From the NCBI GenBank assembly GCA_030576275.1, contig JALIBN010000028.1:6952-70951 (forward strand): a stretch of 64,000 nucleotides of DNA. Direction: 5' to 3'. Origin of the DNA: Pseudomonadota bacterium. GTDB lineage: Bacteria; Pseudomonadota; Gammaproteobacteria; Nitrosococcales; Methylophagaceae. The notes beneath the pieces were generated by a model. The model searched no databases. It was given only the letters and a program-made list of their open reading frames with translations, and was not told the DNA's origin. The first letter of the stretch is position 1; the number at the start of each line of letters is the position of its first letter. The translations under genes were made by a program, and so were the position numbers. Of this stretch, positions 5,645-41,977 are shown piece after piece.

Positions 5645-6692
5645 CATTTTCCTTTTATGATATTTTATGAGTATCTATAATATGAATCTCTCACTAAAGC
5701 CATAGTCAGCTTTGTAAGCTTTTATAAATCGCACCGAAAGAATCATATATCCTTCATGATTTGAATCCAGACAAATCATAACATTAGATGTTGATTGGAG
5801 CGATATACACTCACTAGTTTAATAAATCGTAGCAATCTGACCTCTGATTTTTGTATTGACTGATAGTTGTATTGAGTTACAAACATGAGGAGATATTGAA
5901 AATATGCCTAATTCCAGCCTCTCTTTATAATCAGCTACAAATCAAGATATCTGTAGAGTAGATGAGTGGCCATTAGAACACGATTATAGAAATATATAGT
6001 TTGTTTCTGTGCAATGGATATTGAATGGAGCAATTCCATAGTAATCGAATATTGTCGTTGGGAATGAAAATAATGCTCTCATTACATTACTGTCGTTGAT
6101 AACGGCATCATTTTAGTACGGGAAAAGATTTGATGATGTAGGGTTGGTCAAAAGTTAGTCGAATATGGATTTAGTTGTACTGAAAACTCTTACAAATGTT
6201 GCATTGCTCTCAAGTGTAATTATTAATAAACCTCTATTTTATTTTTAAACAGTCAATAATTCAGGTGCAGTTATATAATTGATTTTTTCTTGCCAATCCA
6301 AGGAAAAGCATCATTTTGTATTCGATTAAATGTTCTAGCTGAATGGTCTTCTGTTCTGTTTGCACTAAATTTAGTGTGCCACTTAGCCCAACTAGACGAG
6401 GCTTAAAATATAAATCCACCAGCAAAACCATGCAAGTGTTCATTAATTAGCACGCATTAAATTCCTGACACTTTCGGATCAGACTCTTAGTTTTTTGGTA
6501 GTAGATAGCTGGCGATTATATTATTATCCGTCATCGTTTTCAAAATCTCTCAAGTGACCGTATGAATGTTTATCTAAGGCATTGGTCATGGATTTGCATC
6601 TACTGGCATTTTGAACGCGCCCTACCCACCACTAGCTAGTTAAATCGTATATAGTTCAGACTTAATATTCCGCACTCACTTATGTCTGAGAT

Positions 6693-30403: not shown

Positions 30404-31282
30404 CTAAAAATGAGAGTTCATCATTTCACGGACAATGTCAGGAATGAACTTACGCTTCATTGTTACGGCATAAAAATTTTCATATACGTTCGGCAAGACC
30501 AGATATTCTGATAAAACACCATTCTCAATCTCATCCTTAACAACCACTGGTGGTAAAACAGCTAGTGTCCCCGTATCTCGAGCTAAAAGGCGTAGCATTG
30601 CCATATCATCTACTTGAGCTACTACTGTCGGTTTAAAATTTTTCACAGCACAAAACGCATTGAATGCTGAACGAATTTCAATATTTTGAGAAGGTAATAT
30701 CCATTTTATTTTACTGTAGCCTTTGGGAAAGTCACCTGATGGTGCTTTACCGGCAGGTCCGATAATAGATATTGATTGTCGTGAAATAAGCTGTGAATTG
30801 TATTCGGGCCCTTTGTTTAGAATACCAATATGTTGATTAGTTAAAATAATGTCGAATTTATGTTTGCTTAGGCCATCTAAAAGATCGTTTATACCTCGAG
30901 TTGAAATAGAAAATGTATTGTCAGGTTTCAATAAAAGAGGGTTAATGAAACGTTCTGTGAAATTTCTCGATAGCGTAGTTTGAACGCCAACAGAAATATG
31001 TTGTTGATGGTTCTCTGAACCCTTTTTGATAAATGATTCAAGCTCTTGCCCCGTTGTAAATATATCATCGGCATACGCAAAAACCTTTTCACCCATATCA
31101 GTTAACGTTAGCTTCCTGCCTGTTCGCTCAAAAAGACTTACATTCATATTTTGCTCAAAAAGCTTGATTTGCTGTGAGAGTGCAGATTGAGAAACGAAGC
31201 ATTCTTGTGCTGTTTTTGTGACGCTTCCGCTTAAGGCAATGTGCCAGAAATAATAAAGATGGTGGTAATTTAATTTTTTCAT
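30404..31282 (-). CDS. NhaR-like LysR-type regulator of the carbon cluster
   Basis: 292 residues. The N-terminal HTH reads LNYHHLYYFWHIALSGSVTKTAQECFVSQSALSQQIKLFE, closest in wording to NhaR, the Na+-responsive LysR activator, rather than to CbbR or CmpR. The C-terminal half is a LysR substrate-binding domain (NQHIGILNKGP, RLLARDTGTLAVLPP). It diverges from the delta-carbonic anhydrase gene with a 120-bp spacer holding a 13-bp palindrome right before its own start. It probably controls carbonic anhydrase and SbtA expression. The ligand (Na+, bicarbonate or a metabolite) is unknown. Confidence 0.85.
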   Translation of the reverse strand: MKKLNYHHLYYFWHIALSGSVTKTAQECFVSQSALSQQIKLFEQNMNVSLFERTGRKLTLTDMGEKVFAYADDIFTTGQELESFIKKGSENHQQHISVGVQTTLSRNFTERFINPLLLKPDNTFSISTRGINDLLDGLSKHKFDIILTNQHIGILNKGPEYNSQLISRQSISIIGPAGKAPSGDFPKGYSKIKWILPSQNIEIRSAFNAFCAVKNFKPTVVAQVDDMAMLRLLARDTGTLAVLPPVVVKDEIENGVLSEYLVLPNVYENFYAVTMKRKFIPDIVREMMNSHF

Positions 31283-31284
31283 GA

Positions 31285-31297
31285 TTAGTTAAACTAA
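31285..31297. promoter_or_regulatory. Candidate LysR operator
   Basis: TTAGTTAAACTAA is a palindrome around a central base and satisfies the T-N11-A rule for LysR boxes. It begins 3 bp upstream of the regulator ATG, so binding would also block the regulator's own translation start region (autorepression). Confidence 0.5.
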
Positions 31298-31402
31298 TGT
31301 ATTTAATAATTATTATATATTTTTATTATAGTATTATTTTTGGCATAGTAACGACAGATTTTTGAAACCATAAACTTAAATTAAAATTTGGAGAAATGGA
31401 AA

Positions 31403-32254
31403 ATGAAATTAGTCATCATTACTCTGGCTTCAACATTGATTGCTTTTTCTGCTCATGCGGCTGATTTAGGCCATACTAAAGCGAGCGATGAAATAGTCAA
31501 AAAACAACGTGATAATCTTGCCAGAAACACCAAAGGAATTGGTTTTGGGCCACAATCACCTCGCGATATTGATTCTAAATCAGGTGTTAATAAACGAGTT
31601 TTCAGTGAGGCTCCGGCTTACACAGAAATGAACTTGTGTAACATTCATTTTCATCAAAATGCTGAGCATAAGGGGGGTGAATTTACAAAATATGCAGGTA
31701 ATGGTGACGGCAAAGGTTATGGCACTGGCTACAAATACTCAGGAAATTTAACAGACAAAGAGCTAAGGCCATTAGATATTGAAATTTGTCCTAGTGAGCA
31801 TCAAGCTTTATTTCCGGGCGATACAATTGAAGTGCATTACGTTCATTCCTCTGCACAAGCAACACCAGGGTCGACTCTCGGTGCATGTCTTAGTGATGCG
31901 GTAGTTAATCCTCAATTACGAGTAGAGACTCAGGTATATGTGCTTGTGAATGACAATCAAGCAGCAGATTTCTCTAAATTGACCGAGCATAGCCTCGTTA
32001 ATGGTTTGCATCAGGCTATCAATATTCCGAGTGATACTGGTATTCCCGTCCAATATGAAGGTTCAACCACTGGCCCCGGATATAATGAAAAGGCATCTCC
32101 CTTAAAGGTTTCATGGAGTGTTAGACCTCAAGTTCGCAAGGTCAATATTAGTAGTGTTGGAGAATGGTGCAAACAAAACACGTTTGATGAAGACCATGCC
32201 CATGGAGTGAGAAACCTTGTCATAAACCCCGAACTTTTATCTCAGATTGAGTGA
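31403..32254 (+). CDS. Delta-class carbonic anhydrase, exported
   Basis: 283 residues with signal peptide MKLVIITLASTLIAFSAHA. The body carries the bacterial delta-CA hallmarks: NIHFHQNAEHKGGEF with the zinc His-x-His, IEVHYVHSS, GACLSDAVVNPQLRVETQV, STTGPGY and the late DEDHAHGVRNLV. It interconverts CO2 and bicarbonate, here in the periplasm. Delta-CAs were first known from diatoms and occur in sulfur-oxidising bacteria. The ATG at 31403 has GGAG 10 nt upstream; a TTG at 31388 is less likely. SbtA follows after a terminator, so the pair could feed periplasmic bicarbonate to uptake. Confidence 0.85.
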   Translation: MKLVIITLASTLIAFSAHAADLGHTKASDEIVKKQRDNLARNTKGIGFGPQSPRDIDSKSGVNKRVFSEAPAYTEMNLCNIHFHQNAEHKGGEFTKYAGNGDGKGYGTGYKYSGNLTDKELRPLDIEICPSEHQALFPGDTIEVHYVHSSAQATPGSTLGACLSDAVVNPQLRVETQVYVLVNDNQAADFSKLTEHSLVNGLHQAINIPSDTGIPVQYEGSTTGPGYNEKASPLKVSWSVRPQVRKVNISSVGEWCKQNTFDEDHAHGVRNLVINPELLSQIE

Positions 32255-32299
32255 TATGACTCAATTGACTATTACAAAGTAAAGGACTCAACATACTAT

Positions 32300-32324
32300 A
32301 AAGCCCCAAATAGGGGCTTTTTTT
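32300..32324 (+). terminator. Terminator between carbonic anhydrase and sbtA
   Basis: AAAGCCCC (32300-32307) pairs with GGGGCTTT (32313-32320), followed by TTTT. It separates or attenuates transcription into sbtA. Confidence 0.85.
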
Positions 32325-32398
32325 CGAGTGACTTACGCTTTAATTTCATTCTATTAATCAGATATATATCAATAACATATCAATAATAGGAGTTTATA

Positions 32399-33328
32399 AT
32401 GCCTGACATAGTCGTGATGTTTTTTTTGCTTGGTTTATTAGCTGGACTCGTAAAGTCAGATCTTGAAATTCCTAAAGCAGCGTATGATGTCCTCAGTCTA
32501 CTGTTGATGCTAACGATTGGTCTAAAAGGTGGGATGGCGCTCTATGGTAATATCGGTTGGCATCTGTTGCCAGAATTAATGGGCGTAGCACTTTTAGGCG
32601 TTATCATTCCAAGTATTATTTATCCTCTCTCAAGAAAAGTTCTAAACTTAAGCATTGCTGATAGTGCCAGTTTTTCAGCCCATTATGGCTCTGTTAGTGC
32701 CGGGACATTTGCTGTAGCACTTGCATATGCGGAGTCCCATGCTCTAGATGTTAGTGGACAAGTAACACTCTACCTAGTCCTCTTGGAATTACCCGCCATA
32801 CTATTTGGGATTATGATTTTTAAACATTTTACGCAAGGTAAGTCGGATCCAGTTGGAGGCCCCCATATACTAAGAGAAGCGGTAACAAGCAGAGGTGTTA
32901 TTTTATTGGCTGGAGGAGTTATCATTGGTATGATATATGGTCCAATTCAGGGGGCTGTTGTCACCGATTTGTATAGCACTGCATTCAAGGGTGTTTTGGC
33001 CTTATTTCTTTTAGAGATGGGTATGGTTGCAGCGGTTGCTTTATTGAACGTTTCTTTCGGAAACGTTAGAGTGATTATTTTTGCCGTCTTGATACCTCCT
33101 TTCCTGGCGGTATTTGGCATTATCGCAGGTAAAATTATTGGTTTGGAGAGTGGCTCGATACTTGTACTGGCAAGTCTCACTGCCAGTGCATCATACATTG
33201 CAGCACCCGTTGCTATCAGAACAGCCATTCCTAAAGCAGATATTGGCCTTGTTATGCTAGCTTCGTTAGGGCTGACCTTCCCATTTAATGTTTTAGTGGG
33301 TATACCCCTCTACCATAGCTGGCTGTAA
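32399..33328 (+). CDS. sbtA: SbtA sodium-dependent bicarbonate transporter
   Basis: 309 residues, about ten membrane helices. It matches the SbtA/DUF897 family: LLAGLVKSDLEIPKAAYD, LLMLTIGLKGG, the helix with SFSAHYGSVSAGTFAVA (bicarbonate/Na+ site), and the second repeat GMVAAVALL and SASYIAAPVAIRTAIPKA. In cyanobacteria it imports bicarbonate with Na+ as part of the CO2-concentrating mechanism and is gated by the PII-like SbtB. No sbtB is seen here. AATAGGAG precedes the ATG. Confidence 0.9.
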   Translation: MPDIVVMFFLLGLLAGLVKSDLEIPKAAYDVLSLLLMLTIGLKGGMALYGNIGWHLLPELMGVALLGVIIPSIIYPLSRKVLNLSIADSASFSAHYGSVSAGTFAVALAYAESHALDVSGQVTLYLVLLELPAILFGIMIFKHFTQGKSDPVGGPHILREAVTSRGVILLAGGVIIGMIYGPIQGAVVTDLYSTAFKGVLALFLLEMGMVAAVALLNVSFGNVRVIIFAVLIPPFLAVFGIIAGKIIGLESGSILVLASLTASASYIAAPVAIRTAIPKADIGLVMLASLGLTFPFNVLVGIPLYHSWL

Positions 33329-33349: not shown

Positions 33350-33379
33350 AAGCCCCAATACTCAATCGTGTTGGGGCTT
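33350..33379. terminator. Bidirectional terminator after sbtA
   Basis: AAGCCCCAA (33350-33358) pairs perfectly with TTGGGGCTT (33371-33379). The minus strand reads GGGGCTTTTTATT, serving the convergent ABC gene too. Confidence 0.75.
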
Positions 33380-37658: not shown

Positions 37659-37686
37659 CATAATCAACCATTAAGTGGAGATGATT

Positions 37687-39000
37687 ATGAATACGCAATC
37701 TATACATTCCTTTACAGCCCTTGTTGGCATTGATTGGGCCGACAAGAAACATGATTTCTGTTTACAAGTCGCAGGTGAAGGTCAGCGGGAATTTGGAACC
37801 TTTGCTCATACGCCTGAAGCTATCGCCTTATGGGCTAAAGCATTACATGACCGCTTTGATGGCCCCATCGCTATCTGTCTTGAGTTATCCAAAGGCCCAG
37901 TGGTCGATGCATTACAGCGATGCCCATTTCTTGAGATATTTCCCGTACACCCATCGACACTGGCCAAATACCGAGAAGCTTTCGTACCCAGTCATGCTAA
38001 AGATGATCCGACGGTTGCTGAAATGGCACTGGAGATATTGCTACGCCATCCAGACAAACTTGACCCCATTCAATTGCAAAGTGAGCCTATGCGAATGCTA
38101 TCTAGGCTCGTCGAAGAGCGACGTGGTTTAGTCAATGAGGTGATTGGCATCACCAATCGTTTAACCAACGCACTGAAGCAATACTACCCGCAGGCATTGG
38201 AGTGGTTCGAACAAAAAGATACCGTGATATTCTGTGACTTTTTAAACCGCTGGCCAACCCTCAAACAGGTCAAACGAGCAAGACAATCCACGCTCGAATC
38301 ATTCTTCCATCAGCACAACGTACGTCGAGCCTATCTCATTGAAAGACGTATTCAAGGGATCCGTTCTGCAACTGCACTGACAGATGATGAAGCTGTAATT
38401 AGACCTTATCAGATGGTCGCACAAGCGATGACTGAACAATTACGAGCACTGTTGCACGCCATTGACGATTTCGATACTGAAATCGATCAGATTGCTAAAG
38501 GTCTGCCAGACTATGATTTGTTTGCCGCATTGCCTGGTGCTGGACACGTTATGGCACCTAGGCTATTAGTTGCTTTTGGTGAGGATCGTGAGCGATATAC
38601 CAATGCCGCTCAGATCCAACGATATTCTGGCGTAGCCCCAGTGGTTGAACGCAGCGGTAAAAAGTGTTGGGGACATTGGCGGATTGCCTGTCCCACCTTT
38701 TTAAGGCAAACCTTTGTTGAATGGGCAGGCTCTACCATTCCGAGATCGTTCTGGGCCGGAGCTTACTACCAACAGCAACGCAACAAAGGTTGTTCTCACA
38801 GTGTTGCCGTGCGAGCGTTGGCCTTTAAGTGGATCCGGATCCTTTATCGTTGCTGGCAATCAAAGACACCTTATGACGAGTCAATTTATTTAAAATCACT
38901 ACGACGCAGAGGTTCTCCTTTATTGGCAAACCTCTCAGAGGATGTAAAACAACTTGACGGAGTACCTCAGGGCGTAAAGCGGACATTGACTAATTCTTGA
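37687..39000 (+). mobile_element. IS110-family transposase
   Basis: 437 residues. The N-terminal RuvC-like DEDD domain begins LVGIDWADKKHDFCL and continues with LELSKGPVVDAL, then SHAKDDPTVAEMALE for the acidic residues. The C-terminal Transposase_20 domain has ALPGAGHVMAPRLLVAFGED and QRYSGVAPVVERSGKK, which contains the catalytic Ser region. IS110 enzymes recombine DNA through a bridge RNA made from non-coding DNA of the element. GTGGAG 6 nt before the ATG at 37687 decides the start. No terminal inverted repeats are expected. The gene appears intact and its codon use differs from its neighbours. Confidence 0.9.
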
Positions 39001-40416: not shown

Positions 40417-40779
40417 TTACTTGCCAGTGTAATTAGCTGCAATATATTCGCCATTCACCGTAAGGAACACATACAGTTTCTGCTTAGCCACGTCAGGAAT
40501 TGCATCATTTAGAAAGATCACCACCCATTCAGGCGTGCCATCAAACTCTTTTTTCTCGACGGTAGTAGCTGAGATAGATCCCCAGCTCACTTCCAGCTTT
40601 TCTTTTTGCACGAGTTCGGCAACAATATTGGTCGCATTTGATTCTGCTTTTACATTATCCACCGCCTCCTGTGAATGTGAGTGACCATGATCGTGACCGT
40701 GGTCCTGATCATTTCCTGCCATAACTAAAAATGTGACTGAACTAAAAATGAAACCAAGTAATAATATATTTAATCGCAT
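40417..40779 (-). CDS. DUF6488-type periplasmic protein with His-rich segment
   Basis: 120 residues. Signal peptide (RLNILLLGFIFSSVTFLVMA), then a His-rich stretch NDQDHGHDHGHSHSQE, then a small domain (SWGSISATTVEKKEFDGTPEWVVIF ... KLYVFLTVNGEYIAANYTGK) that I assign to DUF6488. The His/Asp run would bind Ni, Zn or Cu. The ATG at 40779 has GGGAG 9 nt upstream. It lies 16 bp after the HupE-type gene in one operon, suggesting periplasmic metal capture for that transporter. Confidence 0.75.
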   Translation of the reverse strand: MRLNILLLGFIFSSVTFLVMAGNDQDHGHDHGHSHSQEAVDNVKAESNATNIVAELVQKEKLEVSWGSISATTVEKKEFDGTPEWVVIFLNDAIPDVAKQKLYVFLTVNGEYIAANYTGK

Positions 40780-40795
40780 AATATGAATCTCCCAA

Positions 40796-41977
40796 TTAAT
40801 CAATGCTATCGTGAATTTTTGGGGTTGAGATTTCTAGTGGATCTTCTGTTATTTCCATTCCTGTATCTAGACGCTGGTAAGCCCCTTTAATATTTAATGT
40901 GATGGTGACAGGTTGTTTGGTATCGTTTTTCCAGTACCAACCATGAGTCCCTGCAAATGGCGTTGTTAACGTACCGCTAGCCTGACTATCAGTATTTTCT
41001 AGGTAACTCTTGAAATAGCCTGATGTGTCACCTGCCGGTTCTCCATGAAAGTCATAAAACAATGCCTCGCCATCTGTTTCCCATGCATAGTTAAGTGTTG
41101 AATCTTTTTCTAAATATAACTTGTATTCCTTGTAATCTCTAGCAGGAATAGTAACGCTGATTGAGTCTTGCCATTGGGATTGCTGAGATAATTCAGAACT
41201 TTTTTCGATTGCAACTGGTTTAGCACCGCTCAGTTTTTGAGCATTAACCTCAGCCCCACTAAACGCTTCTGAATTAGTGCTGTGTTCATAACCGTGCATC
41301 TGCATCAGGAAAAGTAATCCACCGAAGAGGATAAGGCTATAGTTTGCAATCAAGCTAAATGTTTTAAAAGCGTGGCTTTTTCGCCAAGCAACAAGCAAAA
41401 TTAACATAAGAGCCAATGCGCTGATCTGACCTAGCTCAATGCCAACATTAAACGATATGATGTTTAGAAGAAGATGGTCTCCACTTAATGGTAGCTCTTG
41501 TAAGCGAGTGGATAAACCAAAGCCGTGTATCAGACCTAACCCAACAATCATTAACAACATGTTGGGCGGATTAATATTGAGATATTTTCTAAAACCATCA
41601 ATATTGGCAAAGGCAATATAACAAACGCTCAGAGCAACCACTGCATCAATGACAAAGTAATTAAGTTGAATCGCGTTAAAGGTAGCAAAAATTAGCGTGA
41701 CACTGTGGCCAAGCGTAAATGCCGTGACGTATTTCGCAATATCTCGGAAGCTGGTCAGAAAAAAGATAATTCCGAACACAAATGCCAGATGATCGTAACC
41801 AGACAACATGTGCGTAGCACCTAGCCACATATAGCGAAGATTACCCCCTTCGATAATAGATAACTTTTCAGCTTCAGACATACCGTGAGCATAGGAAAAT
41901 TGTGAAAATAAACACAATATTAGTAGGCCTACACTTAGGTAGAAAGTACGGGTATAGAAATTTTTTGTGGGTAGCAC
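40796..41977 (-). CDS. HupE/UreJ-family metal transporter with C-terminal extension
   Basis: 393 residues with a GTG start after AAGGAGC. A signal-like first helix ends ...SYAHG, followed by a HupE/UreJ_2 domain: ATHMLSGYDHLAFVFG, FTLGHSVTLIFA and LGLIHGFGLSTRLQE, with His/Asp residues typical of Ni/Co permeases. After about residue 225 comes a soluble part of about 165 residues (ISVTIPARDYKEYKLYLEKD ... GTHGWYWKNDTKQPVTITLNIKG) that resembles a GOLD/PPC beta-sandwich for binding at the periplasmic face. The fusion and its partner DUF6488 suggest metal uptake. Confidence 0.8.
   Translation of the reverse strand: MLPTKNFYTRTFYLSVGLLILCLFSQFSYAHGMSEAEKLSIIEGGNLRYMWLGATHMLSGYDHLAFVFGIIFFLTSFRDIAKYVTAFTLGHSVTLIFATFNAIQLNYFVIDAVVALSVCYIAFANIDGFRKYLNINPPNMLLMIVGLGLIHGFGLSTRLQELPLSGDHLLLNIISFNVGIELGQISALALMLILLVAWRKSHAFKTFSLIANYSLILFGGLLFLMQMHGYEHSTNSEAFSGAEVNAQKLSGAKPVAIEKSSELSQQSQWQDSISVTIPARDYKEYKLYLEKDSTLNYAWETDGEALFYDFHGEPAGDTSGYFKSYLENTDSQASGTLTTPFAGTHGWYWKNDTKQPVTITLNIKGAYQRLDTGMEITEDPLEISTPKIHDSID

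Follow-up and report, generated by a model that had tools for sequence, protein, structure and literature searches.

The window, by which we mean the whole 64-kb stretch of DNA analysed, contains three neighbouring and intact genes: a LysR-family regulator on the reverse strand (30404..31282; PF00126 and PF03466) and, on the forward strand, a delta-class carbonic anhydrase (CA; 31403..32254) and an SbtA-family transporter (32399..33328). The initial annotation had named this trio and read it as a locus for inorganic carbon, and in both respects our results agree with it. For the CA gene, the ATG at 31403, which has GGAG upstream and opens a readable signal peptide, is a likelier start than the TTG at 31388 of the mechanically called open reading frame. 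The predicted signal peptide, MKLVIITLASTLIAFSAHA (31403..31459, forward strand), was read from the sequence by eye, and the protein is probably exported to the periplasm. It matched the Pfam family ‘Delta carbonic anhydrase’ (PF10563) with an E-value of 4e-80 and 268.5 bits, the cut-off being 26.3, and residues H82, H84, E88, H89 and H145 were invariant in 45 relatives, with H82, H84 and H145 being candidate ligands. TweCA of diatoms belongs to the same Pfam family, whereas the protein encoded here is bacterial and has a predicted signal peptide; the two were compared at the level of the family.

In the literature consulted, delta-CAs form a class of their own for which no crystal structure is available (PMC6009927, PMC10880623), and solved structures searched with the CA sequence, both singly and as a profile, gave no match. 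When a profile of 45 delta-CAs was compared with one of 18 bacterial alpha-CAs the score was 38.5, against a maximum of 22.2 in 40 column shuffles and 15.8 for the reversed profile, whilst the hhalign probability was only 61%. The motifs QSPxDI, HxHxxxEH, ExHxVH, YxGSxTxxP and VxW were matched in order between the two classes. Foldseek searches with a predicted model of the CA returned mostly alpha-CAs or alpha-CA-like domains as top matches, at TM-scores of about 0.25, and VIA-align Z values were below 5; since this fold match is weak, it is the order of the motifs that carries the argument, and it suggests that the delta and alpha classes may be related.

The transporter aligned to PF05982 over its full length (residues 5–308; E 2e-99, 333 bits) and in a phmmer search matched the solved SbtA Slr1512 (E 8e-16), which identifies it as a putative Na+-dependent bicarbonate transporter. 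Slr1512 works with SbtB, whereas the protein encoded here falls in a different clade, without an adjacent SbtB, and its relatives stand alone in their genomes. In keeping with the initial annotation, which had remarked on the missing partner, no SbtB gene was adjacent to sbtA or present anywhere in the 64-kb window. SbtB does lie next door to a more distant SbtA (42–44% identical) in two genus-mates, with the P-II (SbtB-like) genes directly 3′ of sbtA (L145:8238-8540 and L146:2833-3138). The host genome carries a second SbtA on another contig (C12; L136:7734-8663), 72% identical to the first and with neither SbtB nor a LysR gene beside it.

Between the CA gene and sbtA we predicted an intrinsic terminator (32300..32324, forward strand) with an 8-bp stem and a GC core followed by U7, the folding energy of 32290-32335 being −13.4 kcal/mol (z −3.3); a simple terminator scan had missed it and it was recovered by the folding-energy test with z-scores. 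This terminator is strong, and a CA gene followed by sbtA therefore need not constitute one operon. A second terminator-like hairpin lies 3′ of sbtA (33350..33379) and would be usable on both strands (−20.1 and −20.2 kcal/mol, z −6.1 and −4.7, respectively).

The regulator had been described as resembling the sodium sensor NhaR, thereby tying bicarbonate uptake to Na+. NhaR is also a LysR-family protein and the NCBIfam NhaR model was indeed the best NCBIfam match of the window LysR, which scored 138 bits against an equivalog cut-off of 219 bits. SbtA-family transport is Na+-coupled, which would fit a sodium signal. However, the same genome encodes a genuine NhaR on another contig, scoring 280 bits, only 24% identical to the window LysR and situated directly upstream of the NhaA antiporter gene, so that nhaA adjoins this other LysR and not the one studied here. 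Close homologues of the window LysR sit instead with dabB-dabA and likewise score below the NhaR cut-off (116–150 bits). The sub-threshold score, together with the true NhaR beside nhaA elsewhere, rules out an NhaR identity for the window LysR, and we regard a sodium-sensing regulator at this locus as very improbable.

The kinship of the regulator lies with the DAB system, dabB-dabA encoding a proton-driven, CO2-hydrating pump. Our set of homologues at E ≤ 1e-60 comprised 19 proteins (10 from a sister genus, 3 more distant and 6 from the order of one of the latter), 18 of which were encoded divergently from dabB, the remaining one being truncated by a contig end and so undecidable. In the sister genus, homologues at 58–62% identity occurred in 10 of 24 genomes, and DabA was present in exactly those 10 (Fisher p 5e-7, uncorrected for kinship). 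In nine of the ten dabB-dabA is divergent from lysR (PF00361 and PF10070, confirmed on a sample), whilst in the tenth lysR begins right where its contig breaks off, dabB being found at the end of another contig. The three distant homologues (39–48% identity), from elsewhere in the class (Gammaproteobacteria), were divergent from dabB, as were the six from the order of one of them, and the homologues found in two further orders were all dabB-linked. In a tree of 12 rows, some with long branches, the window LysR grouped with the dab-linked copies of the sister genus (99/98), inside a clade of dab-linked regulators. As the outgroups are dab-linked too, dab linkage is probably the ancestral state of the clade. 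In its own genome the window LysR is divergent not from dabB-dabA but from the CA gene, and no DabA was found in a search of that genome (G000), nor were dab remnants seen within the 64-kb window. A LysR gene in reverse orientation at the 5′ end of a nuoL-ybcC operon (DUF2309, now DabA; ‘clade A’) has been recorded previously (PMC5700660). That report notes it only as a neighbour; we found nothing further on a DabA-linked LysR, and no description of an operator for a DAB-adjacent LysR, in the open-licence literature.

The intergenic region between lysR and the CA gene aligned with lysR-dabB intergenic regions without gaps over 73 nt, with 41–51 of the 73 positions identical, defining a conserved AT-rich block (31286..31358, forward strand) that extends into the CA promoter and is a candidate operator. 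The initial annotation had proposed footprinting the regulator on 31283-31402, and the conserved block, which lies inside that interval, backs the suggested coupling of regulator and CA. A 73-nt position-specific scoring matrix (PSSM) built from seven dab promoters of other genomes, with the window sequence left out, scored 36.8 bits at 31286 on the forward strand when run over both strands of the window, the runner-up scoring −6.7 bits; when the intergenic region was dinucleotide-shuffled 2000 times, no shuffle reached 36.8 bits. A weak partial match to the matrix at 6217 has no fitting gene start and was taken as chance. With a sequence model that included the window copy, 31286-31358 was the sole strong site genome-wide (3e-11; next 0.05), under strict filters with which weak matches are lost.

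Since the promoter of lysR itself could account for conservation of the lysR-side half, the CA-side half was scored separately. The operator might have been retained for autoregulation of lysR alone, with the CA and sbtA genes being chance neighbours expressed independently, and the lysR-side half is indeed the better conserved (26–30 of 40 positions, vs 15–22 of 33 on the CA side). The trio, moreover, occurs once and the CA is a stand-alone gene elsewhere: among 80 relatives of the CA at 62–70% identity, examined with flanking sequence that reached 8 kb at most and was far shorter for some, no locus (0/80) contained SbtA or a LysR of the window type, and no common neighbour emerged beyond local or lineage synteny. 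Against autoregulation alone, the CA-side 33 nt ranked first of 18704 AT-matched sites, the top site being itself, and carries a probable extended −10 element directed toward the CA gene (TGG-CATAGT; 31341..31349, forward strand; inferred from the consensus) that is in register with the TGn-CATACT of dabB promoters. We therefore think autoregulation alone unlikely. The same survey of CA relatives, which the initial annotation had advised, rules out on the CA side a recurrent three-gene module, the trio having been seen in a single genome. In one genus-mate (G025, L157:834-3340) the delta-CA gene is preceded by DUF4197 and by a gene similar to the neighbours of RuBisCO in L164, and the similarity of these flanking genes suggests that it may close a cbb cluster there.

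Whether the regulator also governs sbtA is a separate matter. No copy of the operator was found upstream of sbtA by the strictly filtered genome-wide search, or in the upstream regions of sbtA relatives, and because of this and of the strong intervening terminator co-regulation of sbtA with the CA gene is doubtful. The earlier view of CA and SbtA under one regulator is thus supported for the CA, with its conserved operator, and is in doubt for sbtA. LysR may then govern the CA gene only, with sbtA transcribed separately from a promoter of its own, as its solitary relatives would suggest. Speaking against this, two inorganic-carbon genes are adjacent on the same strand, and terminators can be read through; we give the CA-only arrangement serious weight, whilst leaning slightly against it.

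The host genome (2.37 Mb in 34 contigs, 99.98% complete), which may belong to the Methylophagaceae to judge from the composition of its order, was also surveyed for carbon-fixation genes, as had been advised, and one RuBisCO large subunit was found outside the window, together with CbbQ, a CbbO-like VWA protein and a divergent CbbR-like LysR. From its sequence and gene set this RuBisCO is probably form II. The genome encodes one beta-CA and one delta-CA, and a search of it gave no match to alpha-CA.

Overall, we consider it likely that this is an inorganic-carbon response locus, made up of a dab-type LysR, its operator, the CA promoter, activation at low carbon and a neighbouring SbtA. LysR would most likely bind the candidate operator at 31286-31358, beside the CA promoter's extended −10, and would activate that promoter when inorganic carbon is short, as LysR regulators of carbon fixation do. 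With DabBA absent, the promoter would drive a secreted CA, which would bring periplasmic CO2 and HCO3− into equilibrium. The neighbouring SbtA would take up HCO3− together with Na+, and once inside the cell the HCO3− could be turned back to CO2 for RuBisCO by the cytoplasmic beta-CA. Control of sbtA by LysR is the weakest step of this explanation. A low-carbon signal is consistent with the strong induction at low DIC, in some autotrophs, of the dac genes of Hydrogenovibrio crunogenus and of one sbtA of Thiomicrospira pelophila (PMC12628692).

Compared with the lysR/nuoL-ybcC arrangement (lysR/dabB-dabA, DAB or DAC; PMC5700660), the window has a LysR that is homologous and likewise divergently placed, and the operator and −10 block are shared, whereas here the regulator faces a putative periplasmic delta-CA, with SbtA beyond a terminator, in a genome without DabA. 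The dab linkage of its LysR kin, an operator common to dabB promoters and the absence of DabA argue that the target changed whilst regulator and operator were kept. On balance we favour, with modest confidence, a natural promoter swap in which DabBA behind the promoter was exchanged for a periplasmic CA, perhaps with SbtA, under one signal. The DAB system does a job comparable to that of CA plus SbtA, by hydration of CO2 driven by the proton motive force (PMC13144422). If the swap is real, two chemically different strategies of carbon uptake have been placed under a single signal. The comparison shows the regulator and the DAB pump to be separable, and it ties a bacterial delta-CA to inorganic-carbon control in a RuBisCO-bearing organism. 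The 73-nt candidate site, obtained by comparison, is directly testable, and the locus would allow a clean test of inorganic carbon versus sodium as the signal.

Further along the window from sbtA lie a CstA-family transporter (PF02554; 35394-36857) of 487 aa, the E. coli CstA model being longer at 701 positions, an IS110-family transposase (37675-39000) 4.3 kb from sbtA, and, at 40417-41977, genes for a HupE/UreJ-like membrane protein and, after it, a small DUF6488 protein rich in His.
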